Origin: Diprion similis
Taxonomy: Eukaryota > Arthropoda > Insecta > Hymenoptera > Diprionidae
Length of the DNA: 64,000 bases
Direction of reading: 5' to 3'
NCBI RefSeq assembly: GCF_021155765.1
Contig: NC_060112.1
Location: 5,580,001 to 5,644,000 of the forward strand
How positions within the stretch are numbered: the first letter of the stretch is position 1; each line of letters starts with the position of its first letter. The notes beneath the pieces were generated by a model that had not been told where the DNA came from, searched no databases, and saw only the letters and a program-made list of their open reading frames with translations. Shown here piece by piece: positions 12,481-53,626 of this stretch. The position numbers were made by a program, and so were the translations under genes.

Positions 12481-13069
12481 ATGTGGTTTCCAAGATTGCA
12501 GATTTCTTCAGTGAATCCAAAACTGCTGACTTGACCGATCCCGATTATGTTGATATTGTGGGTGGTGATTTAACCCCATTCAATTGTTACATGCTGAACG
12601 TTTTGACGATTCTGAAGAATAGTAAAAATGATTCTTTGATGGACTACGTCAACGTTATTTTGCGAAAGAACTCGTTTGCGTGCTGTCAAAGTGGGCTGCG
12701 AGCAGCAGATCAGGGGTTGTGTTCGTGATTTAAGTGCCGATGGTCATAAGCTCGTTTTGATGCGATTTGTGAATTCCTGAGCTCCTAGTAGTCAGGAAAA
12801 TCTCAGACAAGTCGATTATGGGGTGAATAAATTTTTGCGCAGAAAATAGGTGAGGCTAACACCTTTGGTTTTTGGCGAATATTTCAAGGACTTTGGAAAA
12901 AGCTGCAATAAATTCTTTCAGGCACTTGCCCGACGTATAGTTTTGGAAGAAAAATCGATTGAGCGCAGTCCAAATGCGCTGCGTGCGACGGATCGAAAGT
13001 TACAGCGAAAGATCGAGAGCCGAATTTTCTCAATTTTTCTGCTGCTGGTCTTTGCGTCGTGATTTCTCT
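12481..13069 (+). repeat. Decayed satellite copies, left flank of the array
   Basis: Two copies are visible at decreasing distance from the array. From about 12,855 a moderately diverged copy carries the landmarks CTAACACCTTTGGTTTTTGGC, GCTGCAATAAATTCTTTCAG, ATCGATTGAGCGCAG and ATGCGCTGCGTGCGACG. It is about 343 bases long from landmark to landmark instead of 312. The extra sequence, CTGCTGCTGGTCTTTGCGTC, is absent from core units. Further out, about 12,565-12,715, is a strongly decayed copy (TAACCCCATTCAATTG, TTGACGATTCTGAAGAATAG, GACTACGTCAACGTTATTTTGCG). These edge copies carry stops and are not open reading frames. Confidence 0.8.
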
Positions 13070-16000
13070 GCCGTTGATCCTACGCTCTTTTCCATGTGTT
13101 TTTTGAGTTCCTGGGGGTCGATTTACTCCAGAGAGGGTTATGCAAATCGATTCCAGAACGAGAAATTTTCGGCTCCGAAAATGAGGAAAAAACTAAAGCT
13201 AACCCCTTTGGATTTTTGGCCAAAATTTTGACGAGTTTGAAAAGTGCTGCAATTAATTCTTTCAGGCACTATTCCGACGTAATTTTGCAAGAGGAATCGA
13301 TTAAGCGCAGTCCCAATACGCTGCGAGCAACGCCTGAGATGTTACGGAAAAAAAACTGCTTATTTTCGTCCTCATTTCTCTTCTGATGGTCCTACGCTCT
13401 TTTCCATGTGTTTTTTGAGTTCCTGGGAGTCGATTTACTCCAGAAAGGGTCATACAAATCGATTCCAGAACGACAAATTTTCGGCTCCGAAAATGAGGTA
13501 AAAACTAAGGCTAACCCCTTTGGATTTTTGGCCAAAATTTCGACGAGTTTGAAGAGTACTGCAATTAATTCTTTAGGGCACTATTTAGACGTAATTTTGC
13601 GAGAGGAATCGATTAAGCGCAGTTCCAATACGCTGCGAGCAACGCCTGAGAAGTTACGGAAAAAAAACTGCTTATTTTCGTCCTCATTTCTCTTCTGATG
13701 GTCCTACGCTCTTTTCCATGTGTTTTTTGAGTTCCTGGGAGTCGATTTACTCCAGAAAGGGTCATACAAATCGATTCCAGAACGACAAATTTTCGGCTCC
13801 GAAAATGAGGTAAAAACTAAGGCTAACCCCTTTGGATTTTTGGCCAAAATTTCGACGAGTTTGAAGAGTACTGCAATTAATTCTTTAGGGCACTATTTAG
13901 ACGTAATTTTGCGAGAGGAATCGATTAAGCGCAGTTCCAATACGCTGCGAGCAACGCCTGAGAAGTTACGGAAAAAAAACTGCTTATTTTCGTCCTCATT
14001 TCTCTTCTGATGGTCCTACGCTCTTTTCCATGTGTTTTTTGAGTTCCTGGGAGTCGATTTACTCCAGAAAGGGTCATACAAATCGATTCCAGAACGAGAA
14101 ATTTTCGGCTCCGAAAATAAGGAAAAAACTAAGACTGACCCCTTTGGATTTTTGGCCAAAATTTCGACGAGTTTGAAAAGTACTGCAATTAATTCTTTAG
14201 GGCACTATTTCGACGTAATTTTGCGAGAGGAATCGATTAAGCGCAGTTCCAATACGCTGCGAGCAACGCCTGAGAAGTTACGAAGAAAAAACTGCTTATT
14301 TGCGTCCTCATTTCTCTTCTGATGGTCCTACGCTCTTTTCCATGTGTTTTTTGAGTTCCTGGGGGTCGATTTACTCCGGAAAGGGACACACAAATCGATT
14401 CCAGAACGAGAAATTTTCAGCTCCGAAAATGAGGAAAAAACTAAGGCTAACCCCTTTGGATTTTTGGCCAAAATTTTGACGAGTTTGAAAAGTGCTGCAA
14501 TTAATTCTTTAAGGCACTATTCCGACGTAATTTTGCGAGAGGAATCGATTAAGCGCAGTTCCAATACGCTGCGAGCAACGCCTGAGAAGTTACGGAGAAA
14601 AAACTGCTTATTTGCGTCCTCATTTCTCTTCTGATGGTCCTACGCTCTTTTCCATGTGTTTTTTGAGTTCCTGGGAGTCGATTTACTCCGGAAAGGGTCA
14701 TACAAATCGATTCCAGAACGAGAAATTTTCGGCTCCGTAAATGAGGAAAAAACTAAGGCTAACCCCTTTGGATTTTTGGCCAAAATTTTGACGAGTTTGA
14801 AAAGTACTGCAATTAATTCTTTAGGGCACTATTTCGACGTAATTTTGCCAGAGGAATCGATTAAGCGCAGTTCCAATACGCTGCGAGCAACGCCTGAGAA
14901 GTTACGGAGAAAAAACTGCTTATTTGCGTCCTCATTTCTCTTCTGATGGTCCTACGCTCTTTTCCATGTGTTTTTTGAGTTCCTGGGGGTCGATTTACTC
15001 CGGAAAGGGTCATACAAATCGATTCCAGAACGAGAAATTTTCGGCTCCGAAAATGAGGAAAAAACTAAGGCTAACCCCTTTGGATTTTTGGCCAAAATTT
15101 TGACGAGTTTGAAAAGTGCTGCAATTAATTCTTTAAGGCACTATTCCGACGTAATTTTGCGAGAGGAATCGATTAAGCGCAGCTCCAATACGCTGCGAGC
15201 AACGCCTGAGAAGTTACGGAGAAAAAACTGCTTATTTTCGTCCTCATTTCTCTTCTGATGGTCCTACGCTCTTTTCCATGTGTTTTTTGAGTTCCTAGGG
15301 GTCGATTTACTCCAGAAAGGGTCATACAAATCGATTCCAGAACGAGAAATTTTCGGCTCCGAAAATGAGGAAAAAACTAAGGCTAACCCCTTTGTATTTT
15401 TGGCCAAAATTTTGACGAGTTTGAAAAGTGCTGCAATTAATTCTTTAAGGCACTATTCCGACGTAATTTTGCGAGAGGAATCGATTAAGCGCAGTTCCAA
15501 TACGCTGCGAGCAACGCCTGAGAAGTTACGGAGAAAAAACTGCTTATTTTCGTCCTCATTTCTCCTCTGTTGGTCCTACGCTCTTTTCCATGTGTTTTTT
15601 GAGTTCCTAGGGGTCGATTTACTCCAGAAAGGGTCATACAAATCGATTCCAGAACGAGAAATTTTCGGCTCCGAAAATGAGGAAAAAACTAAGGCTAACC
15701 CCTTTGTATTTTTGGCCAAAATTTTGATGAGTTTGAAAAGTACTGCAATTAATTCTTTAGGGCACTATTTCGACGTAATTTTGCGAGAGGAATCGATTAA
15801 GCGCAGTTCCAATACGCTGCGAGCAACGCCTGAGAAGTTACGGAGAAAAAACTGCTTATTTGCGTCCTCATTTCTCTTCTGATGGTCCTACGCTCTTTTC
15901 CATGTGTTTTTTGAGTTCCTGGGGGTCGATTTACTCCGGAAAGGGTCATACAAATCGATTCCAGAACGAGAAATTTTCGGCTCCGAAAATGAGGAAAAAA

Positions 16001-19000
16001 CTAAGGCTAACCCCTTTGGATTTTTGGCCAAAATTTTGACGAGTTTGAAAAGTGCTGCAATTAATTCTTTAAGGCACTATTCCGACGTAATTTTGCGAGA
16101 GGAATCGATTAGGCGCAGTTCCAATACGCTGCGAGCAACGCCTGCGAAGTTACGGAGAAAAAACTGCTTATTTTCGTCCTCATTTCTCCTCTGTTGGTCC
16201 TACGCTCTTTTCCATGTGTTTTTTGAGTTCCTAGGGGTCGATTTACTCCAGAAAGGGTCATACAAATCGATTCCAGAACGAGAAATTTTCGGCTCCGAAA
16301 ATGAGGAAAAAACTAAGGCTAACCCCTTTGTATTTTTGGCCAAAATTTTGATGAGTTTGGAAAGTACTGCAATTAATTCTTTAGGGCACTATTTCGACGT
16401 AATTTTGCGAGAGGAATCGATTAAGCGCAGTTCCAATACGCTGCGAGCAACGCCTGAGAAGTTACGGAGAAAAAACTGCTTATTTGCGTCCTCATTTCTC
16501 TTCTGATGGTCCTACGCTCTTTTCCATGTGTTTTTTGAGTTCCTGGGGGTCGATTTACTCCGGAAAGGGTCATACGAATCGATTCCAAAACGACAAATTT
16601 TCGGCTCCGAAAATGAGGAAAAAACTAAGGCTAACCCCTTTGGATTTTTGGCCAAAATTTTGACGAGTTTGAAAAGTACTGCAATTAATTCTTTAGGGCA
16701 CTATTCCGACGTAATTTTGCGAGAGAAATCGATTAAGCGCAGTTCCAATACGCTGCGAGCAACGCCTGAGAAGTTACGGAAAAAAAACTGCTTATTTTCA
16801 TCCTCATTTCTCCTCTGTTGGTCCTACGCTCTTTTCCATGTGTTTTTTGAGTTCCTGGGGGTCGATTTACTCCAGAAAGAATCATACAAATCGATTCCAG
16901 AACGAGAAATTTTCGGCTCCGAAAATGAGGAAAAAACTAAGGCTAACCCCTTTGGATTTTTGGCCAAAATTTCGACGAGTTTGAAAAGTGCTGCAATTAA
17001 TTCTTTAAGGCACTATTCCGACGTAATTTTGCGAGTGGAATCGATTAAGCGCAGTTCCAATACGCTGCGAGCAACGCCTGAGAAGTTACGGAGAAAAAAC
17101 TGCTTATTTTCGTCCTCATTTCTCTTCTGATGGTCCTACGCTCTTTTCCATGTGTTTTTTGAGTTCCTGGGGGTCAATTGACTCCAGAAAGGGTCATACA
17201 AATCGATTCCAGAACGAGAAATTTTCGGCTCCGAAAATGAGAAAAAAACTAAGGCTAACCCCTTTGGATTTTTGGCCAAAATTTTGACGAGTTTGAAAAG
17301 TACTGCGATTAATTCTTTAGGGCACTATTTCGACGTAATTTTGCCAGAGGAATCGATTAAGCGCAGTTCCAATACGCTGCGAGCAACGCCTGAGAAGTTA
17401 CGGAGAAAAAACTGCTTATTTGCGTCCTCATTTCTCTTCTGATGGTCCTACGCTCTTTTCCATGTGTTTTTTGAGTTCCTGGGGGTCGATTTACTCCGGA
17501 AAGGGTCATACAAATCGATTCCAGAACGAGAAATTTTCGGCTCCGAAAATGAGGAAAAAACTAAGGCTAACCCCTTTGGATTTTTGGCCAAAATTTTGAC
17601 GAGTTTGAAAAGTGCTGCAATTAATTCTTTAAGGCACTATTCCGACGTAATTTTGCGAGAGGAATCGATTAAGCGCAGTTCCAATACGCTGCGAGCAACG
17701 CCTGAGAAGTTACGGAGAAAAAACTGCTTATTTTCGTCCTCATTTCTCCTCTGTTGGTCCTACGCTCTTTTCCATGTGTTTTTTGAGTTCCTAGGGGTCG
17801 ATTTACTCCAGAAAGGGTCATACAAATCGATTCCAGAACGAGAAATTTTCGGCTCCGAAAATGAGGAAAAAACTAAGGCTAACCCCTTTGTATTTTTGGC
17901 CAAAATTTTGATGAGTTTGAAAAGTACTGCAATTAATTCTTTAGGGCACTATTTCGACGTAATTTTGCGAGAGGAATCGATTAAGCGCAGTTCCAATACG
18001 CTGCGAGCAACGCCTGAGAAGTTACGGAGAAAAAACTGCTTATTTGCGTCCTCATTTCTCTTCTGATGGTCCTACGCTCTTTTCCATGTGTTTTTTGAGT
18101 TCCTGGGGGTCGATTTACTCCGGAAAGGGTCATACAAATCGATTCCAGAACGAGAAATTTTCGGCTCCGAAAATGAGGAAAAAACTAAGGCTAACCCCTT
18201 TGGATTTTTGGCCAAAATTTTGACGAGTTTGAAAAGTGCTGCAATTAATTCTTTAAGGCACTATTCCGACGTAATTTTGCGAGAGGAATCGATTAGGCGC
18301 AGTTCCAATACGCTGCGAGCAACGCCTGCGAAGTTACGGAGAAAAAACTGCTTATTTTCGTCCTCATTTCTCCTCTGTTGGTCCTACGCTCTTTTCCATG
18401 TGTTTTTTGAGTTCCTAGGGGTCGATTTACTCCAGAAAGGGTCATACAAATCGATTCCAGAACGAGAAATTTTCGGCTCCGAAAATGAGGAAAAAACTAA
18501 GGCTAACCCCTTTGTATTTTTGGCCAAAATTTTGATGAGTTTGAAAAGTACTGCAATTAATTCTTTAGGGCACTATTTCGACGTAATTTTGCGAGAGGAA
18601 TCGATTAAGCGCAGTTCCAATACGCTGCGAGCAACGCCTGAGAAGTTACGGAGAAAAAACTGCTTATTTGCGTCCTCATTTCTCTTCTGATGGTCCTACG
18701 CTCTTTTCCATGTGTTTTTCGAGTTCCTGGGGGTCGATTTACTCCGGAAAGGGTCATACAAATCGATTCCAGAACGAGAAATTTTCGGCTCCGAAAATGA
18801 GGAAAAAACTAAGGCTAACCCCTTTGGATTTTTGGCCAAAATTTTGACGAGTTTGAAAAGTGCTGCAATTAATTCTTTAAGGCACTATTTCGACGTAATT
18901 TTGCGAGAGGAATCGATTAAGCGCAGTTCCAATACGCTGCGAGCAACGCCTGAGAAGTTACGGAGAAAAAACTGCTTATTTTCGTCCTCATTTCTCTTCT

Positions 19001-20582
19001 GATGGTCCTACGCTCTTTTCCATGTGTTTTTTGAGTTCCTGGGGGTCGATTTACTCCGGAAAGGGTCATACAAATCGATTCCAAAACGACAAATTTTCGG
19101 CTCCGAAAATGAGGAAACAACTAAGGCTAACCCCTTTGGATTTTTGGCCAAAATTTTGACGAGTTTGAAAAGTGCTGCAATTAATTCTTTAAGGCACTAT
19201 TCCGACGTAATTTTGCGAGAGGAATCGATTAAGCGCAGTTCCAAAACGCTGCGAGCAACGCCTGAGAAGTTACGGAGAAAAAACTGCTCATTTTCGTCCT
19301 CATTTCTCCTCTGTTGGTCCTACGCTCTTTTCCATGTGTTTTTTGAGTTCCTAGGGGTCGATTTACTCCAGAAAGGGTCATACAAATCGGTTCCAGAACG
19401 AGATATTTTCGGCTCCGAAAATGAGGAAAAAACTAAGGCTAACCCCTTTGTATTTTTGGCCAAAATTTTGATGAGTTTGAAAAGTACTGCGATTAATTCT
19501 TTAGGGCACTATTTCGACGTAATTTTGCGAGAGGAATCGATTAAGCGCAGTTCCAATACGCTGCGAGCAACGCCTGAGAAGTTACGGAGAAAAAACTGCT
19601 TATTTGCGTCCTCATTTCTCTTCTGATGGTCCTACGCTCTTTTCCATGTGTTTTTTGAGTTCCTAGGGGTCGATTCACTCCGGAAAGGGTCATACAAATC
19701 GATTCCAGAACGAGAAATTTTCGGCTCCGAAAATTAGGAAAAAACTAAGGCTAACCCCTTTGGATTTTTGGCCAAAATTTTGACGAGTTTGAAAAGTGCT
19801 GCAATTAATTCTTTAAGGCACTATTCCGACGTAATTTTGCGAGAGGAATCGATTAAGCGCAGTTCCAATACGCTGCGAGCAACGCCTGAGAAGTTACGGA
19901 GAAAAAACTGCTTATTTGCGTCCTCATTTCTCTTCTGATGGTCCTACGCTCTTTTCCATGTGTTTTTTGAGTTCCTGGGGGTCGATTTACTCCGGAAAGG
20001 GTCATACGAATCGATTCCAAAACGACAAATTTTCGGCTCCGAAAATGAGGAAAAAACTAAGGCTAACCCCTTTGGATTTTTGGCCAAAATTTTGACGAGT
20101 TTGAAAAGTACTGCAATTAATTCTTTAGGGCACTATTCCGCGTTATTTTGCGAGAGAAATCGATTAAGCGCAGTTCCAATACGCTGCGAGCAACGCCTGA
20201 GAAGTTACGGAGAAAAAACTGCTTATTTTCGTCCTCATTTCTCTTCTGATGGTCCTACGCTCTTTTCCATGTGTTTTTTGAGTTCCTGGGGGTCAATTGA
20301 CTCCAGAAAGGGTCATACAAATCGATTCCAGAACGAGAAATTTTCGGCTCCGAAAATGAGAAAAAAACTAAGGCTAACCCCTTTGGATTTTTGGCCAAAA
20401 TTTTGACGAGTTTGAAAAGTACTGCGATTAATTCTTTAGGGCACTATTTCGACGTAATTTTGCCAGAGGAATCGATTAAGCGCAGTTCCAATACGCTGCG
20501 AGCAACGCCTGAGAAGTTACGGAGACAAAACTGCTTATTTGCGTCCTCATTTCTCTTCTGATGGTCCTACGCTCTTTTCCAT

Positions 20583-23500
20583 GTGTTTTTTGAGTTCCTG
20601 GGGGTCGATTTACTCCGGAAAGGGTCATACAAATCGATTCCAGAACGAGAAATTTTCGGCTCCGAAAATGAGGAAAAAACTAAGGCTAACCCCTTTGGAT
20701 TTTTGGCCAAAATTTTGACGAGTTTGAAAAGTGCTGCAATTAATTCTTTAAGGCACTATTCCGACGTAATTTTGCGAGAGGAATCGATTAGGCGCAGTTC
20801 CAATACGCTGCGAGCAACGCCTGAGAAGTTACGGAGAAAAAACTGCTTATTTTCGTCCTCATTTCTCCTCTGTTGGTCCTACGCTCTTTACCATGTGTTT
20901 TTTGAGTTCCTAGGGGTCGATTTACTCCAGAAAGGGTCATACAAATCGATTCCAGAACGAGAAATTTTCGGCTCCGAAAATGAGGAAAAAACTAAGGCTA
21001 ACCCCTTTGTATTTTTGGCCAAAATTTTGATGAGTTTGAAAAGTACTGCAATTAATTCTTTAGGGCACTATTTCGACGTAATTTTGCGAGAGGAATCGAT
21101 TAAGCGCAGTTCCAATACGCTGCGAGCAACGCCTGAGAAGTTACGGAGAAAAAACTGCTTATTTGCGTCCTCATTTCTCTTCTGATGGTCCTACGCTCTT
21201 TTCCATGTGTTTTTTGAGTTCCTGGGGGTCGATTTACTCCGGAAAGGGTCATACAAATCGATTCCAGAACGAGAAATTTTCGGCTCCGAAAATGAGGAAA
21301 AAACTAAGGCTAACCCCTTTGGATTTTTGGCCAAAATTTTGACGAGTTTGAAAAGTGCTGCAATTAATTCTTTAAGGCACTATTCCGACGTAATTTTGCG
21401 AGAGGAATCGATTAGGCGCAGTTCCAATACGCTGCGAGCAACGCCTGCGAAGTTACGGAGAAAAAACTGCTTATTTTCGTCCTCATTTCTCCTCTGTTGG
21501 TCCTACGCTCTTTTCCATGTGTTTTTTGAGTTCCTTGGGGTCGATTTACTCCAGAAAGGGTCATACAAATCGATTCCAGAACGAGAAATTTTCGGCTCCG
21601 AAAATGAGGAAAAAACTAAGGCTAACCCCTTTGTATTTTTGGCCAAAATTTTGATGAGTTTGAAAAGTACTGCAATTAATTCTTTAGGGCACTATTTCGA
21701 CGTAATTTTGCGAGAGGAATCGATTAAGCGCAGTTCCAATACGCTGCGAGCAACGCCTGAGAAGTTACGGAGAAAAAACTGCTTATTTGCGTCCTCATTT
21801 CTCTTCTGATGGTCCTACGCTCTTTTCCATGTGTTTTTTGAGTTCCTGGGGGTCGATTTACTCCGGAAAGGGTCATACGAATCGATTCCAAAACGACAAA
21901 TTTTCGGCTCCGAAAATGAGGAAAAAACTAAGGCTAACCCCTTTGGATTTTTGGCCAAAATTTTGACGAGTTTGAAAAGTACTGCAATTAATTCTTTAGG
22001 GCACTATTCCGACGTAATTTTGCGAGAGAAATCGATTAAGCGCAGTTCCAATACGCTGCGAGCAACGCCTGAGAAGTTACGGAGAAAAAACTGCTTATTT
22101 TCGTCCTCATTTCTCTTCTGATGGTCCTACGCTCTTTTCCATGTGTTTTTTGAGTTCCTGGGGGTCAATTGACTCCAGAAAGGGTCATACAAATCGATTC
22201 CAGAACGAGAAATTTTCGGCTCCGAAAATGAGAAAAAAACTAAGGCTAACCCCTTTGGATTTTTGGCCAAAATTTTGACGAGTTTGAAAAGTACTGCGAT
22301 TAATTCTTTAGGGCACTATTTCGACGTAATTTTGCCAGAGGAATCGATTAAGCGCAGTTCCAATACGCTGCGAGCAACGCCTGAGAAGTTACGGAGACAA
22401 AACTGCTTATTTGCGTCCTCATTTCTCTTCTGATGGTCCTACGCTCTTTTCCATGTGTTTTTTGAGTTCCTGGGGGTCGATTTACTCCGGAAAGGGTCAT
22501 ACAAATCGATTCCAGAACGAGAAATTTTCGGCTCCGAAAATGAGGAAAAAACTAAGGCTAACCCCTTTGGATTTTTGGCCAAAATTTTGACGAGTTTGAA
22601 AAGTGCTGCAATTAATTCTTTAAGGCACTATTCCGACGTAATTTTGCGAGAGGAATCGATTAAGCGCAGTTCCAATACGCTGCGAGCAACGCCTGAGAAG
22701 TTACGGAGAAAAAACTGCTTATTTTCGTCCTCATTTCTCCTCTGTTGGTCCTACGCTCTTTACCATGTGTTTTTTGAGTTCCTAGGGGTCGATTTACTCC
22801 AGAAAGGGTCATACAAATCGATTCCAGAACGAGAAATTTTCGGCTCCGAAAATGAGGAAAAAACTAAGGCTAACCCCTTTGTATTTTTGGCCAAAATTTT
22901 GATGAGTTTGAAAAGTACTGCAATTAATTCTTTAGGGCACTATTTCGACGTAATTTTGCGAGAGGAATCGATTAAGCGCAGTTCCAATACGCTGCGAGCA
23001 ACGCCTGAGAAGTTACGGAGAAAAAACTGCTTATTTGCGTCCTCATTTCTCTTCTGATGGTCCTACGCTCTTTTCCATGTGTTTTTTGAGTTCCTGGGGG
23101 TCGATTTACTCCGGAAAGGGTCATACAAATCGATTCCAGAACGAGAAATTTTCGGCTCCGAAAATGAGGAAAAAACTAAGGCTAACCCCTTTGGATTTTT
23201 GGCCAAAATTTTGACGAGTTTGAAAAGTGCTGCAATTAATTCTTTAAGGCACTATTCCGACGTAATTTTGCGAGAGGAATCGATTAGGCGCAGTTCCAAT
23301 ACGCTGCGAGCAACGCCTGCGAAGTTACGGAGAAAAAACTGCTTATTTTCGTCCTCATTTCTCCTCTGTTGGTCCTACGCTCTTTTCCATGTGTTTTTTG
23401 AGTTCCTTGGGGTCGATTTACTCCAGAAAGGGTCATACAAATCGATTCCAGAACGAGAAATTTTCGGCTCCGAAAATGAGGAAAAAACTAAGGCTAACCC

Positions 23501-24326
23501 CTTTGTATTTTTGGCCAAAATTTTGATGAGTTTGAAAAGTACTGCAATTAATTCTTTAGGGCACTATTCCGACGTAATTTTGCGAGAGAAATCGATTAAG
23601 CGCAGTTCCAATACGCTGCGAGCAACGCCTGAGAAGTTACGGAAAAAAAACTGCTTATTTTCATCCTTATTTCTCCTCTGTTGGTCCTACGCTCTTTTCC
23701 ATGTGTTTTTTGAGTTCCTGGGGGTCGATTTACTCCAGAAAGAATCATACAAATCGATTCCAGAACGAGAAATTTTCGGCTCCGAAAATGAGGAAAAAAC
23801 TAAGGCTAACCCCTTTGGATTTTTGGCCAAAATTTCGACGAGTTTGAAAAGTGCTGCAATTAATTCTTTAAGGCACTATTCCGACGTAATTTTGCGAGTG
23901 GAATCGATTAAGCGCAGTTCCAATACGCTGCGAGCAACGCCTGAGAAGTTACGGAGAAAAAACTGCTTATTTTCGTCCTCATTTCTCTTCTGATGGTCCT
24001 ACGCTCTTTTCCATGTGTTTTTTGAGTTCCTGGGGGTCAATTGACTCCAGAAAGGGTCATACAAATCGATTCCAGAACGAGAAATTTTCGGCTCCGAAAA
24101 TGAGAAAAAAACTAAGGCTAACCCCTTTGGATTTTTGGCCAAAATTTTGACGAGTTTGAAAAGTACTGCGATTAATTCTTTAGGGCACTATTCCGACGTA
24201 ATTTTGCGAGAGAAATCAATTAAGCGCAGTTCCAATACGCTGCGAGCAACGCCTGAGAAGTTACGGAAAAAAAACTGCTTATTTTCGTCCTCATTTCTCC
24301 TCTGTTGGTCCTACGCTCTTTTCCAT
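20583..24326 (+). repeat. Higher-order duplication inside the satellite (six-unit block in tandem)
   Basis: The six units from 20,583 and the six from 22,455 carry largely the same ordered series of diagnostic variants: open unit, VFLAKILMS unit, RRSSN/PAK unit, VFLAKILMS-type unit, then divergence, and the GTCAATTGAC unit last. The offset is 1,872 = 6 x 312. Other blocks repeat likewise. 29,319-30,566 recurs at 30,567 (four units), 33,999-34,622 at 34,623 (two units, both with a one-base deletion), and about 34,934-35,868 partly at 35,869 (three units). The marker pair with GAGGAAACAACT and CCAAAACGCTGC at 19,024 returns at 26,199 and 32,751, about 23 and 21 units apart. Confidence 0.8.
23079..23993 (+). 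other. Longest fused satellite ORF (304 codons; same size at 27,135-28,049 and 35,869-36,783)
   Basis: Three consecutive units stay open because their junctions carry the TGT-TGG variant instead of TGA. The predicted 104-residue repeat begins MFFEFLGVDLL, has a basic/Ser-rich middle (KSIPEREIFGSENEEKTKA) and NSLRHYSDVILREESIKR, and ends KLRRKNCLFSSSFLLCWSY. I recognise no domain. Openness follows automatically from a stop-free unit with a length divisible by three. Amino-acid-changing substitutions are common and the three frameshifts are tolerated. Most likely this is incidental ORF content of a satellite and not a protein-coding gene. Confidence 0.3.
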
Positions 24327-27300
24327 GTGTTTTTTGAGTTCCTGGGGGTCGATTTACTCCGGAAAGGGTCATACAAATCGATTCCAGAACGAGAAATTTT
24401 CGGCTCCGAAAATGAGGAAAAAACTAAGGCTAACCACTTTGGATTTTTGGCCAAAATTTTGTCGAGTTTGAAAAGTGCTGCAATTAATTCTTTAAGGCAC
24501 TATTCCGACGTAATTTTGCGAGAGGAATCGATTAAGCGCAGTTCCAATACGCTGCGAGCAACGCCTGAGAAGTTACGGAGAAAAAACTGCTTATTTTCGT
24601 CCTCATTTCTCTTCTGATGGTCCTACGCTCTTTTCCATGTGTTTTTTGAGTTCCTAGGGGTCGATTTACTCCAGAAAGGGTCATACAAATCGATTCCAGA
24701 ACGAGAAATTTTCGGCTCCGAAAATGAGGAAAAAACTAAGGCTAACCCCTTTGTATTTTTGGCCAAAATTTTGATGAGTTTGAAAAGTACTGCAATTAAT
24801 TCTTTAGGGCACTATTTCGACGTAATTTTGCCAGAGGAATCGATTAAGCGCAGTTCCAATACGCTGCGAGCAACGCCTGAGAAGTTACGGAGAAAAAACT
24901 GCTTATTTGCGTCCTCATTTCTCTTCTGATGGTCCTACGCTCTTTTCCATGTGTTTTTTGAGTTCCTGGGGGTCGATTTACTCCGGAAAGGGTCATACAA
25001 ATCGATTCCAGAACGAGAAATTTTCGGCTCCGAAAATGAGGAAAAAACTAAGGCTAACCCCTTTGGATTTTTGGCCAAAATTTTGACGAGTTTGAGAAGT
25101 GCTGCAATTAATTCTTTAAGGCACTATTCCGACGTAATTTTGCGAGAGGAATCGATTAAGCGCAGTTCCAATACGCTGCGAGCAACGCCTGAGAAGTTAC
25201 GGAGAAAAAACTGCTTATTTTCGTCCTCATTTCTCTTCTGATGGTCCTACGCTCTTTTCCATGTGTTTTTTGAGTTCCTGGGGGTCGATTTACTCCGGAA
25301 AGGGTCATACAAATCGATTCCAAAACGACAAATTTTCGGCTCCGAAAATGAGGAAAAAACTAAGGCTAACCCCTTTGGATTTTTGGCCAAAATTTTGACG
25401 AGTTTGAAAAGTGCTGCAATTAATTCTTTAGAGCACTATTCCGACGTAATTTTGCGAGAGGAATCGATTAAGCGCAGTCCCAATACGCTGCGAGCAACGC
25501 CTGAGAAGTTACGGAAAAAAAACTGCTTATTTTCGTCCTCATTTCTCTTCTGATGGTCCTACGCTCTTTTCCATGTGTTTTTTGAGTTCCTGGGGGTCAA
25601 TTGACTCCAGAAAGGGTCATACAAATCGATTCCAGAACGAGAAATTTTCGGCTCCGAAAATGAGGAAAAAACTAAGGCTAACCCCTTTGGATTTTTGGCC
25701 AAAATTTTGACGAGTTTAAAAAGTACTGCAATTAATTCTTTAGGGCACTATTTCGACGTAATTTTGCGAGAGGAATCGATTAAGCGCAGTTCCAATACGC
25801 TGCGAGCAACGCCTGAGAAGTTACGGAGAAAAAACTGCTTATTTGCGTCCTCATTTCTCTTCTGATGGTCCTACGCTCTTTTCCATGTGTTTTTCGAGTT
25901 CCTGGGGGTCGATTTACTCCGGAAAGGGTCATACAAATCGATTCCAGAACGAGAAATTTTCGGCTCCGAAAATGAGGAAAAAACTAAGGCTAACCCCTTT
26001 GGATTTTTGGCCAAAATTTTGACGAGTTTGAAAAGTGCTGCAATTAATTCTTTAAGGCACTATTTCGACGTAATTTTGCGAGAGGAATCGATTAAGCGCA
26101 GTTCCAATACGCTGCGAGCAACGCCTGAGAAGTTACGGAGAAAAAACTGCTTATTTTCGTCCTCATTTCTCTTCTGATGGTCCTACGCTCTTTTCCATGT
26201 GTTTTTTGAGTTCCTGGGGGTCGATTTACTCCGGAAAGGGTCATACAAATCGATTCCAAAACGACAAATTTTCGGCTCCGAAAATGAGGAAACAACTAAG
26301 GCTAACCCCTTTGGATTTTTGGCCAAAATTTTGACGAGTTTGAAAAGTGCTGCAATTAATTCTTTAAGGCACTATTCCGACGTAATTTTGCGAGAGGAAT
26401 CGATTAAGCGCAGTTCCAAAACGCTGCGAGCAACGCCTAAGAAGTTACGGAGAAAAAACTGCTCATTTTCGTCCTCATTTCTCCTCTGTTGGTCCTACGC
26501 TCTTTTCCATGTGTTTTTTGAGTTCCTAGGGGTCGATTTACTCCAGAAAGGGTCATACAAATCGATTCCAGAACGAGAAATTTTCGGCTCCGAAAATGAG
26601 GAAAAAACTAAGGCTAACCCCTTTGTATTTTTGGCCAAAATTTTGATGAGTTTGAAAAGTACTGCGATTAATTCTTTAGGGCACTATTTCGACGTAATTT
26701 TGCGAGAGGAATCGATTAAGCGCAGTTCCAATACGCTGCGAGCAACGCCTGAGAAGTTACGGAGAAAAAACTGCTTATTTGCGTCCTCATTTCTCTTCTG
26801 ATGGTCCTACGCTCTTTTCCATGTGTTTTTTGAGTTCCTAGGGGTCGATTCACTCCGGAAAGGGTCATACAAATCGATTCCAGAACGAGAAATTTTCGGC
26901 TCCGAAAATTAGGAAAAAACTAAGGCTAACCCCTTTGGATTTTTGGCCAAAATTTTGACGAGTTTGAAAAGTGCTGCAATTAATTCTTTAAGGCACTATT
27001 CCGACGTAATTTTGCGAGAGGAATCGATTAAGCGCAGTTCCAATACGCTGCGAGCAACGCCTGAGAAGTTACGGAGAAAAAACTGCTTATTTTCGTCCTC
27101 ATTTCTCTTCTGATGGTCCTACGCTCTTTTCCATGTGTTTTTTGAGTTCCTGGGGGTCGATTTACTCCGGAAAGGGTCATACAAATCGATTCCAAGACGA
27201 CAAATTTTCGGCTCCGAAAATGAGGAAAAAACTAAGGCTAACCCCTTTGGATTTTTGGCCAAAATTTTGACGAGTTTGAAAAGTACTGCAATTAATTCTT

Positions 27301-30300
27301 TAGGGCACTATTCCGACGTAATTTTGCGAGAGAAATCGATTAAGCGCAGTTCCAATACGCTGCGAGCAACGCCTGAGAAGTTACGGAAAAAAAACTGCTT
27401 ATTTTCGTCCTCATTTCTCCTCTGTTGGTCCTACGCTCTTTTCCATGTGTTTCTTGAGTTCCTGGGGGTCGATTTACTCCAGAAAGGGTCATACAAATCG
27501 ATTCCAGAACGAGAAATTTTCGGCTCCGAAAATGAGGAAAAAACTAAGGCTAACCCCTTTGGATTTTTGGCCAAAATTTTGACGAGTTTGAAAAGTGCTG
27601 CAATTAATTCTTTAAGGCACTATTCCGACGTAATTTTGCGAGAGGAATCGATTAAGCGCAGTTCCAATACGCTGCGAGCAACGCCTGAGAAGTTACGGAA
27701 AAAAAACTGCTTATTTTCGTCCTCATTTCTCCTCTGTTGGTCCTACGCTCTTTTCCATGTGTTTTTTGAGTTCCTGGGGGTCGATTTACTCCAGAAAGGG
27801 TCATACAAATCGATTCCAGAACGAGAAATTTTCGGCTCCGAAAATGAGGAAAAAACTAAGGCTAACCCCTTTGGATTTTTGGCCAAAATTTCGACGAGTT
27901 TGAAAAGTGCTGCAATTAATTCTTTAAGGCACTATTCCGACGTAATTTTGCGAGTGGAATCGATTAAGCGCAGTTCCAATACGCTGCGAGCAACGCCTGA
28001 GAAGTTACGGAGGAAAAACTGCTTATTTTCGTCCTCATTTCTCTTCTGATGGTCCTACGCTCTTTTCCATGTGTTTTTTGAGTTCCTGGGGGTCAATTGA
28101 CTCCAGAAAGGGTCATACAAATCGATTCCAGAACGAGAAATTTTCGGCTCCGAAAATGAGAAAAAAACTAAGGCTAACCCCTTTGGATTTTTGGCCAAAA
28201 TTTTGACGAGTTTGAAAAGTACTGCGATTGATTCTTTAGGGCACTATTCCGACGTAATTTTGCGAGAGAAATCAATTAAGCGCAGTTCCAATACGCTGCG
28301 AGCAACGCCTGAGAAGTTACGGAAAAAAAACTGCTTATTTTCGTCCTCATTTCTCCTCTGTTGGTCCTACGCTCTTTTCCATGTGTTTTTTGAGTTCCTG
28401 GGGGTCGATTTACTCCAGAAAGGGTCATACAAATCGATTCCAGAACGAGAAATTTTCGGCTCCGAAAATGAGGAAAAAACTAAGGCTAACCCCTTTGGAT
28501 TTTTGGCCAAAATTTCGACGAGTTTGAAAAGTGCTGCAATTAATTCTTTAAGGCACTATTCCGACGTAATTTTGCGAGTGGAATCGATTAAGCGCAGTTC
28601 CAATACGCTGCGAGCAACGCCTGAGAAGTTACGGAGAAAAAACTGCTTATTTTCGTCCTCATTTCTCTTCTGATGGTCCTACGCTCTTTTCAATGTGTTT
28701 TTTGAGTTCCTGGGGGTCGATTTACTCCGGAAAGGGTCATACAAATCGATTCCAGAACGAGAAATTTTCGGCTCCGAAAATGAGGAAAAAACTAAGGCTA
28801 ACCCCTTTGGATTTTTGGCCAAAATTTTGTCGAGTTTGAAAAGTGCTGCAATTAATTCTTTAAGGCACTATTCCGACGTAATTTTGCGAGAGGAATCGAT
28901 TAAGCGCAGTTCCAATACGCTGCGAGCAACGCCTGAGAAGTTACGGAGGAAAAACTGCTTATTTTCGTCCTCATTTCTCTTCTGATGGTCCTACGCTCTT
29001 TTCCATGTGTTTTTTGAGTTCCTAGGGGTCGATTTACTCCGGAAAGGGTCATACAAATCGATTCCAGAACGAGAAATTTTCGGCTCCGAAAATGAGGAAA
29101 AAACTAAGGCTAACCCCTTTGTATTTTTGGCCAAAATTTTGATGAGTTTGAAAAGTACTGCAATTAATTCTTTAGGGCACTATTTCGACGTAATTTTGCG
29201 AGAGGAATCGATTAAGCGCAGTTCCAATACGCTGCGAGCAACGCCTGAGAAGTTACGGAGAAAAAACTGCTTATTTGCGTCCTCATTTCTCTTCTGATGG
29301 TCCTACGCTCTTTTCCATGTGTTTTTTGAGTTCCTGGGGGTCGATTTACTCCGGAAAGGGTCATACAAATCGATTCCAGAACGAGAAATTTTCGGCTCCG
29401 AAAATGAGGAAAAAACTAAGGCTAACCCCTTTGGATTTTTGGCCAAAATTTTGACGAGTTTGAAAAGTGCTGCAATTAATTCTTTAAGGCACTATTCCGA
29501 CGTAATTTTGCGAGAGGAATCGATTGAGCGCAGTTCCAATACGCTGCGAGCAACGCCTGAGAAGTTACGGAGAAAAAACTGCTTATTTTCGTCCTCATTT
29601 CTCCTCTGTTGGTCCTACGCTCTTTTCCATGTGTTTTTTGAGTTCCTAGGGGTCGATTTACTCCAGAAAGGGTCATACAAATCGATTCCAGAACGAGAAA
29701 TTTTCGGCTCCGAAAATGAGGAAAAAACTAAGGCTAACCCCTTTGTATTTTTGGCCAAAATTTTGATGAGTTTGAAAAGTACTGCAATTAATTCTTTAGG
29801 GCACTATTTCGACGTAATTTTGCGAGAGGAATCGATTAAGCGCAGTTCCAATACGCTGCGAGCAACGCCTGAGAAGTTACGGAGAAAAAACTGCTTATTT
29901 GCGTCCTCATTTCTCTTCTGATGGTCCTACGCTCTTTTCCATGTGTTTTTTGAGTTCCTGGGGGTCGATTTACTCCGGAAAGGGTCATACAAATCGATTC
30001 CAGAACGAGAAATTTTCGGCTCCGAAAATGAGGAAAAAACTAAGGCTAACCCCTTTGGATTTTTGGCCAAAATTCTGACGAGTTTGAAAAGTGCTGCAAT
30101 TAATTCTTTAAGGCACTATTCCGACGTAATTTTGCGAGAGGAATCGATTAAGCGCAGTTCCAATACGCTGCGAGCAACGCCTGCGAAGTTACGGAGAAAA
30201 AACTGCTTATTTTCGTCCTCATTTCTCCTCTGTTGGTCCTACGCTCTTTTCCATGTGTTTTTTGAGTTCCTGGGGGTCGATTTACTCCGGAAAGGGTCAT

Positions 30301-33300
30301 ACAAATCGATTCCAGAACGAGAAATTTTCGGCTCCGAAAATGAGGAAAAAACTAAGGCTAACCCCTTTGTATTTTTGGCCAAAATTTTGATGAGTTTGAA
30401 AAGTACTGCAATTAATTCTTTAGGGCACTATTTCGACGTAATTTTGCGAGAGGAATCGATTAAGCGCAGTTCCAATACGCTGCGAGCAACGCCTGAGAAG
30501 TTACGGAGAAAAAACTGCTTATTTGCGTCCTCATTTCTCTTCTGATGGTCCTACGCTCTTTTCCATGTGTTTTTTGAGTTCCTGGGGGTCGATTTACTCC
30601 GGAAAGGGTCATACAAATCGATTCCAGAACGAGAAATTTTCGGCTCCGAAAATGAGGAAAAAACTAAGGCTAACCCCTTTGGATTTTTGGCCAAAATTTT
30701 GACGAGTTTGAAAAGTGCTGCAATTAATTCTTTAAGGCACTATTCCGACGTAATTTTGCGAGAGGAATCGATTGAGCGCAGTTCCAATACGCTGCGAGCA
30801 ACGCCTGAGAAGTTACGGAGAAAAAACTGCTTATTTTCGTCCTCATTTCTCCTCTGTTGGTCCTACGCTCTTTTCCATGTGTTTTTTGAGTTCCTAGGGG
30901 TCGATTTACTCCAGAAAGGGTCATACAAATCGATTCCAGAACGAGAAATTTTCGGCTCCGAAAATGAGGAAAAAACTAAGGCTAACCCCTTTGTATTTTT
31001 GGCCAAAATTTTGATGAGTTTGAAAAGTACTGCAATTAATTCTTTAGGGCACTATTTCGACGTAATTTTGCGAGAGGAATCGATTAAGCGCAGTTCCAAT
31101 ACGCTGCGAGCAACGCCTGAGAAGTTACGGAGAAAAAACTGCTTATTTGCGTCCTCATTTCTCTTCTGATGGTCCTACGCTCTTTTCCATGTGTTTTTTG
31201 AGTTCCTGGGGGTCGATTTACTCCGGAAAGGGTCATACAAATCGATTCCAGAACGAGAAATTTTCGGCTCCGAAAATGAGGAAAAAACTAAGGCTAACCC
31301 CTTTGGATTTTTGGCCAAAATTCTGACGAGTTTGAAAAGTGCTGCAATTAATTCTTTAAGGCACTATTCCGACGTAATTTTGCGAGAGGAATCGATTAAG
31401 CGCAGTTCCAATACGCTGCGAGCAACGCCTGCGAAGTTACGGAGAAAAAACTGCTTATTTTCGTCCTCATTTCTCCTCTGTTGGTCCTACGCTCTTTTCC
31501 ATGTGTTTTTTGAGTTCCTGGGGGTCGATTTACTCCAGAAAGAATCATACAAATCGATTCCAGAACGAGAAATTTTCGGCTCCGAAAATGAGGAAAAAAC
31601 TAAGGCTAACCCCTTTGGATTTTTGGCCAAAATTTCGACGAGTTTGAAAAGTGCTGCAATTAATTCTTTAAGGCACTATTCCGACGTGATTTTGCGAGTG
31701 GAATCGATTAAGCGCAGTTCCAATACGCTGCGAGCAACGCCTGAGAAGTTACGGAGAAAAAACTGCTTATTTTCGTCCTCATTTCTCTTCTGATGGTCCT
31801 ACGCTCTTTTCCATGTGTTTTTTGAGTTCCTGGGGGTCAATTGACTCCAGAAAGGGTCATACAAATCGATTCCAGAACGAGAAATTTTCGGCTCCGAAAA
31901 TGAGAAAAAAACTAAGGCTAACCCCTTTGGATTTTTTGCCAAAATTTTGACGAGTTTGAAAAGTACTGCGATTAATTCTTTAGGGCACTATTCCGACGTA
32001 ATTTTGCGAGAGAAATCAATTAAGCGCAGTTCCAATACGCTGCGAGCAACGCCTGAGAAGTTACGGAAAAAAAACTGCTTATTTTCGTCCTCATTTCTCC
32101 TCTGTTGGTCCTACGCTCTTTTCCATGTGTTTTTTGAGTTCCTGGGGGTCGATTCACTCCAGAAAGGGTCATACAAATCGATTCCAGAACGAGAAATTTT
32201 CGGCTCCGAAAATGAGGAAAAAACTAAGGCTAACCCCTTTGGATTTTTGGCCAAAATTTTGACGAGTTTGAAAAGTGCTGCAATTAATTCTTTAAGGCAC
32301 TATTCCGACGTAATTTTGCGAGAGGAATCGATTAAGCGCAGTTCCAATACGCTGCGAGCAACGCCTGAGAAGTTACGGAGAAAAAACTGCTTATTTTCGT
32401 CCTCATTTCTCTTCTGATGGTCCTACGCTCTTTTCCATGTGTTTTTTGAGTTCCTGGGGGTCGATTTACTCCGGAAAGGGTCATACAAATCGATTCCAAA
32501 ACGACAAATTTTCGGCTCCGAAAATGAGGAAAAAACTAAGGCTAACCCCTTTGGATTTTTGGCCAAAATTTTGACGAGTTCGAAAAGTGCTGCAATTAAT
32601 TCTTTAGGGCACTATTTCGACGTAATTTTGCGAGAGGAATCGATTAAGCGCAGTTCCAATACGCTGCGAGCAACGCCTGAGAAGTTACGGAGAAAAAACT
32701 GCTTATTTTCGTCCTCATTTCTCTTCTGATGGTCCTACGCTCTTTTCCATGTGTTTTTTGAGTTCCTGGGGGTCGATTTACTCCGGAAAGGGTCATACAA
32801 ATCGATTCCAAAACGACAAATTTTCGGCTCCGAAAATGAGGAAACAACTAAGGCTAACCCCTTTGGATTTTTGGCCAAAATTTTGACGAGTTTGAAAAGT
32901 GCTGCAATTAATTCTTTAAGGCACTATTCCGACGTAATTTTGCGAGAGGAATCGATTAAGCGCAGTTCCAAAACGCTGCGAGCAACGCCTGAGAAGTTAC
33001 GGAGAAAAAACTGCTCATTTTCGTCCTTATTTCTCCTCTGTTGGTCCTACGCTCTTTTCCATGTGTTTTTTGAGTTCCTAGGGGTCGATTTACTCCAGAA
33101 AGGGTCATACAAATCGATTCCAGAACGAGAAATTTTCGGCTCCGAAAATGAGGAAAAAACTAAGGCTAACCCCTTTGTATTTTTGGCCAAAATTTTGATG
33201 AGTTTGAAAAGTACTGCGATTAATTCTGTAGGGCACTATTTCGACGTAATTTTGCGAGAGGAATCGATTAAGCGCAGTTCCAATACGCTGCGAGCAACGC

Positions 33301-36300
33301 CTGAGAAGTTACGGAGAAAAAACTGCTTATTTGCGTCCTCATTTCTCTTCTGATGGTCCTACGCTCTTTTCCATGTGTTTTTTGAGTTCCTAGGGGTCGA
33401 TTCACTCCGGAAAGGGTCATACAAATCGATTCCAGAACGAGAAATTTTCGGCTCCGAAAATGAGGAAAAAACTAAGGCTAACCCCTTTGGATTTTTGGCC
33501 AAAATTTTGACGAGTTTGAAAAGTACTGCAATTAATTCTTTAGGGCACTATTCCGACGTAATTTTGCGAGAGAAATCGATTAAGCGCAGTTCCAATACGC
33601 TGCGAGCAACGCCTGAGAAGTTACGGAAAAAAAACTGCTTATTTTCGTCCTCATTTCTCCTCTGTTGGTCCTACGCTCTTTTCCATGTGTTTTTTGAGTT
33701 CCTGGGGGTCGATTTACTCCGGAAAGGGTCATACAAATCGATTCCAGAACGAGAAATTTCCGGCTCCGAAAATGAGGAAAAAACTAAGGCTAACCCCTTT
33801 GGATTTTTTGACAAAATTTTGACGAGTTTGAACAGTGCTGCAATTAATTCTTTAGAGCACTATTCCGACGTAATTTTGCGAGAGGAATCGATTAAGCGCA
33901 GTTCCAATACGCTGCGAGCAACGCCTGAGAAGTTACGGAGAAAAAACTGCTTATTTGCGTCCTCATTTCTCTTCTGATGGTCCTACGCTCTTTTCCATGT
34001 GTTTTTTGAGTTCCTGGGGGTCGATTTACTCCGGAAAAAGTCATACAAATCGATTCCAGAACGAGAAATTTTCGGCTCCGAAAATGAGGAAAAAACTAAG
34101 GCTAACCCCTTTGGATTTTTGGCCAAAATTTTGACGAGTTTGAAAAGTGCTGCAATTAATTCTTTAAGGCACTATTCCGACGTAATTTTGCGAGTGGAAT
34201 CGATTAAGCGCAGTTCCAATACGCTGCGAGCAACGCCTGAGAAGTTACGGAGAAAAAACTGCTTATTTTCGTCCTCATTTCTCTTCTGATGGTCCTACGC
34301 TCTTTTCCATGTGTTTTTTGAGTTCCTGGGGGTCGATTTACTCCGGAAAAAGTCATACAAATCGATTTCAGAACGAGAAATTTTACGCTCCGAAAATGAG
34401 GAAAAAACTAAGGCTAACCCCTTTGGATTTTTGGCAAAATTTCGACGAGTTTGAAAAGTGCTGCAATCAATTCTTCAAGGCACTATTCCGACGTAATTTT
34501 GCGAGAGGAATCGATTAAGCGCAGTTCCAATACGCTGCGAGCAACGCCTGAGAAGTTACGGAAAAAAAACTGCTTATTTTCGTCCTCATTTCTCCTCTGT
34601 TGGTCCTACGCTCTTTTCCATGTGTTTTTTGAGTTCCTGGGGGTCGATTTACTCCGGAAAAAGTCATACAAATCGATTCCAGAACGAGAAATTTTCGGCT
34701 CCGAAAATGAGGAAAAAACTAAGGCTAACCCCTTTGGATTTTTGGCCGAAATTTTGACGAGTTTGAAAAGTGCTGCAATTAATTCTTTAAGGCACTATTC
34801 CGACGTAATTTTGCGAGTGGAATCGATTAAGCGCAGTTCCAATACGCTGCGAGCAACGCCTGAGAAGTTACGGAGAAAAAACTGCTTATTTTCGTCCTCA
34901 TTTCTCTTCTGATGGTCCTACGCTCTTTTCCATGTGTTTTTTGAGTTCCTGGGGGTCGATTTACTCCGGAAAAAGTCATACAAATCGATTTCAGAACGAG
35001 AAATTTTACGCTCCGAAAATGAGGAAAAAACTAAGGCTAACCCCTTTGGATTTTTGGCAAAATTTCGACGAGTTTGAAAAGTGCTGCAATCAATTCTTCA
35101 AGGCACTATTCCGACGTAATTTTGCGAGAGGAATCGATTAAGCGCAGTTCCAATACGCTGCGAGCAACGCCTGAGAAGTTACGGAAAAAAAACTGCTTAT
35201 TTTCGTCCTCATTTCTCCTCTGTTGGTCCTACGCTCTTTTCCATGTGTTTTTTGAGTTCCTGGGGGTAAATTTACTCCAGAAAGGGACATACAAATCGAT
35301 ACCAGAACAAGAAATTTTCGGCTCCGAAATCGAGGAAAAAACTAAGGCTAACCCCTTTGGATTTTTGCCCAAAATTTTGACGAGTTTGAAAAGTACTGCA
35401 ATTAATTCTTTAGGGCACTATTCCGACGTAATTTTGCAAGAGGAATCGATTAAGCGCAGTTCCAATACGCTGCGAGCAACGCCTGAGAAGTTACGGAAAA
35501 AAAACTGCTCATTTTCGTCCTCATTTCTCCTCTGTTGGTCCTACGCTCTGTTTCATGTGTTTTTTGAGTTCCTGGGGGTCGATTTACTCCGGAAGGGGTC
35601 ATACAAATCGATTCCAGAACGAGAAATTTTCGGCTCCGAAAATGAGGAAAAAACTAAGGCAAACCCCTTTGGATTTTTGGCCAAAATTTTGACGAGTTTG
35701 AAAAGTACTGCAATTAATTCTTTAGGGCACTATTCCGACGTAATTTTGCGAGAGGAATCAATTAAGCGCAGTTCCAATACGCTGCGAGCAACGCCTGAGA
35801 AGTTACGGAGAAAAAACTGCTTATTTTCGTCCTCATTTCTCTTCTGATGGTCCTACGCTCTTTTCCATGTGTTTTTTGAGTTCCTGGGGGTCGATTTACT
35901 CCGGAAAGGGTCATACAAATCGATTCCAGAACGAGAAATTTTCAGCTCCGAAAATGAGGAAAAAACTAAGGCTAACCCCTTTGGATTTTTGGCCAAAATT
36001 TTGACGAGTTTGAAAAGTACTGCAATTAATTCTTTAGGGCACTATTCCGACGTAATTTTGCGAGAGGAATCGATTAAGCGCAGTCCCAATACGCTGCGAG
36101 CAACGCCTGAGAAGTTACGGAAAAAAAACTGCTTATTTTCGTCCTCATTTCTCCTCTGTTGGTCCTACGCTCTTTTCCATGTGTTTTTTGAGTTCCTGGG
36201 GGTAAATTTACTCCAGAAAGGGTCATACAAATCGATACCAGAACAAGAAATTTTCGGCTCCGAAAATGAGGAAAAAACTAAGGCTAACCCCTTTGGATTT

Positions 36301-37675
36301 TTGCCCAAAATTTTGACGAGTTTGAAAAGTACTGCAATTAATTCTTTAGGGCACTATTCCGACGTAATTTTGCAAGAGGAATCGATTAAGCGCAGTTCCA
36401 ATACGCTGCGAGCAACGCCTGAGAAGTTACGGAAAAAAAACTGCTCATTTTCGTCCTCATTTCTCCTCTGTTGGTCCTACGCTCTGTTTCATGTGTTTTT
36501 TGAGTTCCTGGGGGTCGATTTACTCCGGAAGGGGTCATACAAATCGATTCCAGAACGAGAAATTTTCGGCTCCGAAAATGAGGAAAAAACTAAGGCAAAC
36601 CCCTTTGGATTTTTGGCCAAAATTTTGACGAGTTTGAAAAGTACTGCAATTAATTCTTTAGGGCACTATTCCGACGTAATTTTGCGAGAGGAATCAATTA
36701 AGCGCAGTTCCAATACGCTGCGAGCAACGCCTGAGAAGTTACGGAGAAAAAACTGCTTATTTTCGTCCTCATTTCTCTTCTGATGGTCCTACGCTCTTTT
36801 CCATGTGTTTTTTGAGTTCCTGGGGGTCGATTTACTCCGGAAAGGGTCATACAAATCGATTCCAGAACGAGAAATTTTCAGCTCCCGAAATGAGGAAAAA
36901 ACTAAGGCTAACCCCTTTGGATTTTTGGCCAAAATTTTGACGAGTTTGAAAAGTACTGCAATTAATTCTTTAGGGCACTATTCCGACGTAATTTTGCGAG
37001 AGGAATCGATTAAGCGCAGTCCCAATACGCTGCGAGCAACGCCTGAGAAGTTGCGGACAAAAAACTGCTTATTTTTGTCCTCATTTCTCTTCTGTTGGTC
37101 CTACGCTCTGTTTTATGTGTTTTTTGAGTTCCTGGGGGTCGATTTACTCCGGAAAGGGTCATACAAATCGATTCCATAACGAGAAATTTTCGGCTCCGAA
37201 AATGAGGAAAAAACTAAGGCTAACCCCTTTGGATTTTTGGCCAAAATATCGACGAGTTTGAAAAGTGCTGCAATTGATTCTTTAGGGCACTATTCCGACG
37301 TAATTTTGCGAGAGGAATCGATTAAGCGCAGTCCCAATACGCTGCGAGCAACGCCTGAGAAGTTGCGGAAAAAAAACTGCTTATTTTCGTCCTCATTTCT
37401 CCTCTGTTGGTCCTACGCTCTTTTCCATGTGTTTTTTGAGTTCCTGGGGTTCGATTTACTCCGGAAAGGGTCATACAAATCGATTCCAGAACGACAAATT
37501 GTCGGCTCCGAAAATGAGGAAAAAACTAAGGCCAACCCCTTTGGATTTTAGGCCAAAATTTTGACGAGTTTGAAAAGTGCTGCAAATAATTCCTTAAGAC
37601 ACTATCCCGACGTGATTTTGCGAGGGGAATCGATTAAGTGCAGTCCGAATGCGCTGCGAGCAACGGATCAAAAGT

Positions 37676-38035
37676 TACAGCCAAAATACGAAAGACGTAT
37701 TTTCTTAATTCTTCTGCTGCTTGTCTTTGTGTCGTTATTTTTCTGCTGTTGGTCCCACGTTTTTCTTGTTGTGTTTTCTGATTTCCTGGGCGTCGAATTA
37801 ATCAAGAAAGGGTCATACAAATCGATTCCGAGAAGAAAATTTCACAGCTCCAAAAACGACCAAAAAAGTACTGCTAACCCCTTCGGATTTTTCGCGAAAA
37901 TTTCGACGATTCTAAAAAGTGCTGCAATAAATTCTTTCAGGCACTATTTTGACGTCAATTTGCCAGAGAAATCCATTGAACGCCGTCGAAATACGCTGCG
38001 AGAATGGATCAAAACTCTTAGCAGAAAAACATAGA
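37676..38035 (+). repeat. Decayed satellite copy, right flank of the array
   Basis: The last recognisable contiguous copy has CTGCTGCTTGTCTTTGTGTC, GATTTCCTGGGCGTCG, AAGGGTCATACAAATCGATT, GCTAACCCCTTCGGATTTTT and GGCACTATTTTGACGTCAAT. Landmark spacing to the previous unit is about 342 bases, like the left edge copy. Edge copies on both sides therefore share a segment of about 30 bases that core units lack. Confidence 0.85.
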
Positions 38036-53550: not shown

Positions 53551-53626
53551 AGCCAGGCATAGAGGCCAGGTATAGAGGCCAGGCATAGAGGCCAGGTATA
53601 GAGGCCAGGTATAGAGGCCAGGTACC
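53551..53626 (+). repeat. 13-bp minisatellite, about six copies
   Basis: Tandem AGGCCAGGTATAG / AGGCCAGGCATAG units starting near 53,551, 53,563, 53,576, 53,589, 53,602 and 53,615, with the last copy diverging to GGTACC. A lone related piece (GCCAGGTATA) follows at about 53,631. Confidence 0.9.

Follow-up and report, generated by a model that had tools for sequence, protein, structure and literature searches.

The tandem array that lies between CIAPIN1 and PDCD5 on contig C8 is very probably one array of a scattered satellite family, with no sign of coding, in which a 312-bp form expanded and was homogenised inside an older array of 342-bp-type monomers. The window, that is, the whole stretch of DNA analysed here, covers 64,000 nucleotides of the Diprion similis genome (C8:5580001-5644000), and the assembly comprises 269,008,206 bases in 60 contigs.

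Structure of the array and its neighbouring genes

TRF detected a repeat with a period of 312 bp at positions 13051-37665 of the window (78.9 copies, 96% matches, 0% indels). A BLAST search of the window with the consensus recovered 79 units, the first starting at 13075 and the last at 37408, with the final match ending at 37689; the unit spacing is 312 bp in 75 of 78 cases and 311 bp in the other three. All within-array counts are based on 75 of the 79 units, without the last one and the three of 311 bp. These full 312-bp units have a mean pairwise identity of 96.6%, and 59 of them are distinct. The units are arranged head to tail, as in satellite DNA, and the GC content per kb is 41.0-42.5% inside the array versus 31.6-45.6% outside. 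TRF, BLAST, and the Pfam matches of the neighbouring genes (Table 1) confirmed the first-pass annotation of approximately 79 near-identical 312-bp units between CIAPIN1 and PDCD5. Decayed monomers flank the core on the same strand and reach approximately positions 12601 and 39063.

Table 1 Features of the window and of the flanks of other arrays.
Feature	Position in window	Strand	Evidence or remark
Core array, 79 tandem units	13075..37689	+	TRF, BLAST
Left-edge decayed monomers	12601..13074	+	~70% to unit; end segment scores as 342-bp long form
Right-edge decayed monomer	37690..38034	+	80% over 37750-38002; end segment scores as long form
Further decayed monomer fragments	38707..39063	+	38707-38765 at 77%, 38884-39063 at 70%
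Four-unit block duplication	29025..31536	+	1264-bp exact match, copies starting at 29025 and 30273, lag 1248
CIAPIN1 (anamorsin) N-terminal ORF, left neighbour	10617..11273	-	Pfam Anamorsin_N, E 2e-40
PDCD5, right neighbour	42838..43697	+	Pfam PF01984, E 4.1e-14, ORF 43479-43697; presumed first exon 42838-43023
Exons in flanks of other arrays: kinase (L049), ArfGap (L050), ankyrin/TPR repeats (L081), AMP-binding enzyme (L082)			Pfam

Exact internal matches of 1264, 964, and 905 bp occur in the array at lags of four, seven, and six units, respectively. When the unit order was shuffled 200 times, the longest exact match averaged 589 bp and reached at most 968 bp, a maximum that is exceeded only by the 1264-bp block and not by the 964- and 905-bp blocks. 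Several other candidate features were rejected. A strong higher-order repeat is not present in the array, where identity is 0.963 one unit apart and 0.970 two units apart, and an internal duplication of the unit was dismissed on best self-matches of 33% at a shift of 149 (312-bp form) and 32% (342-bp form). The top peaks in a search for a 10-bp dinucleotide rhythm, at 11.55 and 12.47 bp in the 312-bp form and at 12.66 and 9.0 bp in the 342-bp form, were obtained without a control and are read as nothing. A conserved protein-binding block along the unit was also rejected: across 16 array consensuses, no more than 12 bp in a row are invariant (permutation P 0.23), and 26 sites are invariant in the most conserved stretch of 30 bases (P 0.075).

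CIAPIN1 and PDCD5 are both transcribed away from the array, which sits in the 5'-to-5' interval faced by the 5' sides of the two genes. The ORF reading MADPELEAIRQQRLAQLQ, which we take to be the first exon of PDCD5, has in Pfam only a sub-cut-off match, to a family other than that of PDCD5. Other ORFs in the window include an ERCC4-domain ORF, a GH20 hexosaminidase, a UCH ORF, and ATG101. A search of Rfam over the window gave no match at the gathering threshold, and an RNA gene cluster was rejected on this basis. The window also contains a Tc1/mariner-like transposase fragment at 51764-52123 on the plus strand (PF01498, E 2.3e-08), a 13-bp tandem repeat at 53552-53640 (6.8 copies, 88% matches in TRF), and a TAA-type trinucleotide run at 6584-6700, which reads as an Asn/Ser-rich tract inside a 559-aa ORF (5709-7388).

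Genome-wide abundance and distribution

A 28-mer from the unit core, allowing up to two mismatches, matched the whole genome 28,506 times (14,592 and 13,914 on the two strands), of which 1,309 matches are exact, while the reversed 28-mer used as a control matched nowhere in it; such a high copy number is characteristic of satellite DNA. Because the same 28-mer gives 79 matches in the window (first at 13199, last at 37532), the genome-wide count, which takes in isolated monomers as well as arrays, corresponds at 312 bp each to approximately 8.9 Mb, or about 3.3% of the genome as a rough estimate. Assuming that every array has the length of that in the window, the genome would contain approximately 360 of them, a figure that is an extrapolation and not a count.

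Contigs C1 to C14 are each longer than 10 Mb and together amount to 264.5 Mb. Among the matches listed, the family occurs at at least 37 places, including the window array, on nine of these 14 chromosome-sized contigs (C1, C2, C3, C4, C6, C8, C10, C11, and C12); places were delimited by eye on a 50-kb criterion, and seven of the 37 rest on a single match. The DNA-search results are samples, since the query's own place was absent from one of the genome lists. Several separate arrays were found among the matches listed on each of C1, C2, C3, C4, C8, and C10, for example at 0.12, 0.64, 0.98, 1.18, and 2.02 Mb on C1 and at 4.70, 5.59, and 10.30 Mb on C8, and array lengths are approximately 7-30 kb where extents were observed. 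Pfam-matched exons lie in four of 10 other array flanks, approximately 1-5 kb from the edge (Table 1), in a survey that submitted selected ORFs from nine of the 10 non-window flanks to Pfam and left out L077. Nearness to genes is therefore not peculiar to the window array, and since the same repeat builds many similar blocks elsewhere, this array is typical of its genome. The first-pass annotation had called the array and its setting among genes unusual, which the number of places and the exons in other flanks do not bear out. It had also stated that its reading would be refuted if the repeat were present everywhere in the genome as an ordinary dispersed element; the repeat is indeed dispersed, in the form of arrays, and no dispersed mobile element was found.

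Two observations concern the assembly at large. Contigs C1, C2, C3, and C13 start with CCTAA repeats, which represent TTAGG telomeres at four contig starts; TTAGG is the ancestral insect telomere repeat and Hymenoptera vary, according to excerpts of the source (PMC9841428). On the large contig C7, a COX1-like stretch with five TGA codons (G000:C7:8182164-8182700, L072) is probably mitochondrial DNA copied into the nuclear genome, and the mitochondrial DNA is very AT-rich, with 8-25% GC per kb (L071).

Subfamilies and divergence between arrays

Other arrays in the genome have a period of 342 bp, and the 312-bp form is without approximately 30 bp near the unit end. Match spacings elsewhere include 311 bp (C3:3.53M) and 608, 912, and 1520 bp (C2:21.55M), the last three being multiples of 304. 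Over 282 common bases, identity within arrays is 0.931-0.982 in the 15 arrays that comprise two or more units. In all 15, it is higher than the identity to the closest other array, a pattern of concerted evolution as in satellite DNA, with a small margin for the 342-bp arrays. The window array has an identity of 0.968 within and 0.929 to its closest relative, C8:10.3M. In five 342-bp arrays, units are 0.926-0.943 identical between arrays and 0.950-0.982 within them, and these small differences between arrays make their signatures weaker. The between-array identities were calculated from at most 25 units per array with double-counted units removed, but L006 and L082 overlap by approximately 1 kb. 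A junction 32-mer of the window array has 3,700 matches in the genome at up to three mismatches. Its 24 exact matches all lie in the window array, and the one-mismatch forms listed elsewhere differ by one base. A long-form 32-mer has 1,580 matches, and a CGCG variant of the core, allowing up to one mismatch, is found 10,367 times.

Open reading frame of the unit

Each unit carries the stop-free plus-strand frame described in the first-pass annotation, and replacement of the terminal TGA by TGT fuses neighbouring units: of the 75 units, 47 end in TGA and 28 in TGT, and the fused frames in the window array comprise 207 and 311 aa. A repetitive protein-coding gene, in which this open frame with its TGT codons would encode 104-residue repeats, is an exceedingly improbable explanation. 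The frame is open across each unit, reaching 311 aa in the window array and 546 aa in that at C10:9.1M; summed over 16 array consensuses, it has 16 stops, fewer than any of the other five frames (51-94). Four of these consensuses have no stop in the first 93 codons, whereas the other 12 do; moreover, 31% of shuffled units show some frame with one stop or none. The codon-multiple period is itself broken, with three of 78 units at 311 bp and spacings elsewhere of 311 and multiples of 304.

The pattern of substitution argues against coding. The 103 within-array variants comprise 26 synonymous, 73 non-synonymous, and 4 stop changes, versus neutral expectations of 29.3, 69.6, and 4.2. Between arrays, dN/dS is 0.93 in the plus frame versus 0.69-1.02 in the other frames, as summed over non-independent pairs, with some units entered more than once through overlapping loci. 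The consensuses used for dN/dS excluded units that were below 78% identity or failed to span the query, and some rest on few units (C1_1.18M, n = 1; C3_0.5M, C4_19.4M, and C2_21.9M, n = 3 each). Purifying selection, as expected of a protein gene, was not found on the plus frame, and the neutral pattern within and between arrays suggests, at the level of sequence, a non-coding satellite.

Pfam searches gave a similar picture. The peptide of a single unit matches no Pfam family. The 546-aa read-through scores above the whole-protein cut-off for two families (Fucose_iso_N1, 31.6 versus 28 bits, and DUF1286, 26.7 versus 25 bits), but seven unrelated families are listed for it and none passes by a single stretch; the scores are taken as summed chance over the repeats. 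This frame, located at L080:1438-3075 in the C10:9.16M array, is the longest observed, belongs to a diverged subfamily that is approximately 84% identical to the window unit, and is taken as chance. We read the open frame of the satellite as a chance frame that is kept by near-identity of the units together with a period divisible by three. The emphasis that the first-pass annotation placed on the codon-multiple period and open frame is not justified, given the neutral variants, the dN/dS of 0.93, and the other periods not divisible by three, and this removes the tempting reading of a protein gene made of repeats of exactly 104 codons.

Array edges and proposed origin

We read 16 edges of 14 arrays, 15 of which grade into more diverged monomers, with C10:9.1M and C3:2.5M (a 42-bp fragment) as weak cases; the remaining edge, at C11:4.6M, is sharp. 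At the two edges of the window array, the long-form end segment outscores the short-form segment (127 versus 37 and 178 versus 50). Among 11 edges scored, the long form is best in five and the short form in five, with one near tie, and some of the slices at other arrays also contained array units. Because the edge form is mixed, derivation of the 312-bp from the 342-bp form is supported at the window array and not generally.

We propose that the interval between CIAPIN1 and PDCD5 already contained an array of 342-bp-type monomers, inside which a form approximately 30 bp shorter expanded. The 312-bp units would have been homogenised locally through unequal exchange or conversion, a block of four units would have been copied at least once, and the outer monomers may have escaped homogenisation and then decayed. 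Local expansion and homogenisation in an older array are suggested by the private variant, the four-unit duplication, the decayed edges, and the lack of common flanks. We infer unequal exchange as the mechanism and 342 to 312 as the direction of change. The satellite would have no sequence-specific function and is most likely a tolerated, self-maintaining sequence. The tested junction variant has no exact match outside the array, and both edges consist of decayed monomers, findings that do not favour the earlier suggestion of a recently moved satellite.

Alternative explanations

Carriage of the arrays by a mobile element, such as a Helitron-type element with tandem repeats inside it, would suit the high frequency of core matches in both orientations and has a parallel in oyster Helitrons, for which long internal monomer runs are reported in excerpts of the source (PMC10048060). 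However, comparison of 12 flanks of 11 arrays (approximately 48 kb, one flank being 520 bp) gave no cross-match at E 1e-5, so that no common element sequence was found around these arrays, and the array edges mostly grade into decayed monomers. We therefore regard carriage by an element as decidedly unlikely, although an element or extrachromosomal circles may have seeded the arrays long ago. An assembly artefact, with a wrong unit count or order, is very unlikely: units that are 96.6% identical are hard to assemble and the assembly sequence alone was examined, but the majority of the units are distinct, the window array has a variant without an exact match elsewhere, and both of its edges grade. 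A modest error in copy number is possible.

The first-pass annotation further considered a pericentromeric satellite, and a tandem, abundant repeat with a unit of approximately 300 bp would be compatible with a pericentromeric or centromeric block. We nevertheless find this most improbable, since several separate arrays occur on single contigs such as C1 and C8, genes lie on both sides of the window array, and different satellites, of 279 bp (C6, C8, C12, C15, and C17) and 148 bp (C16 and C19), lie at contig starts. One dominant block per chromosome was not observed, the block sizes being partly mapped. A CENP-B-box-like motif was rejected: its core matches the window four times at up to one mismatch versus 11.4 expected, with a single match inside the array, where it falls in the divergent last unit. 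The 279-bp satellite has full units that are 95-97% alike, occupies the first 0.5-3 kb of its five contigs (L015, L013, L054, L057, and L059), and is a candidate centromeric or terminal satellite. The 148-bp period belongs to a third tandem repeat, found in the first 500 bases of its two contigs (L058 and L061).

Significance and comparison with known systems

The array belongs to an abundant, widely scattered, and otherwise ordinary satellite family, and an exceptional or moved status is not needed to explain it. One satellite family thus makes up approximately 3% of an arthropod genome as many scattered arrays, several of them beside genes. These arrays form a natural series in which the expansion, homogenisation, and decay of a satellite, and its tolerance by housekeeping genes, can be measured. 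It is conceivable, though unlikely, that they constitute a putative distributed system, in which satellite blocks among genes would seed local heterochromatin or small RNAs and govern the boundaries or the expression of housekeeping genes nearby, the window array being one element.

The 1.688 (359-bp) satellite of Drosophila has euchromatic relatives, local homogenisation, and copies beside genes. The present family resembles it in a unit of 300-360 bp, in local homogenisation, and in copies beside genes. The moderate-copy euchromatic satellites of Tribolium castaneum are reportedly linked with Pavlek et al. 2015. Judged from titles and abstract openings, no description in the literature matched the 312-bp repeat family. 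In excerpts of a further source, Tribolium has ten moderate-copy satellites, mainly in euchromatic regions and mostly at or below 1% of the genome each (PMC10218199). By this description, the window array beside genes would be similar in location, whereas the present family is more abundant, at approximately 3.3% by the 28-mer count. The same excerpts describe dispersed short satellite arrays in the oyster Crassostrea gigas, often in Helitron/Helentron elements (PMC10218199), and concerted evolution together with monomer runs within oyster Helitrons is described in excerpts of another source (PMC10048060). The wide dispersal of arrays through the genome is shared with the oyster by this description; in contrast to the frequent Helitron/Helentron location there, the 12 flanks compared here are without similarity at E 1e-5. 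Satellite arrays outside centromeric blocks are a kind already known, and the 312-bp array is a further member of it.
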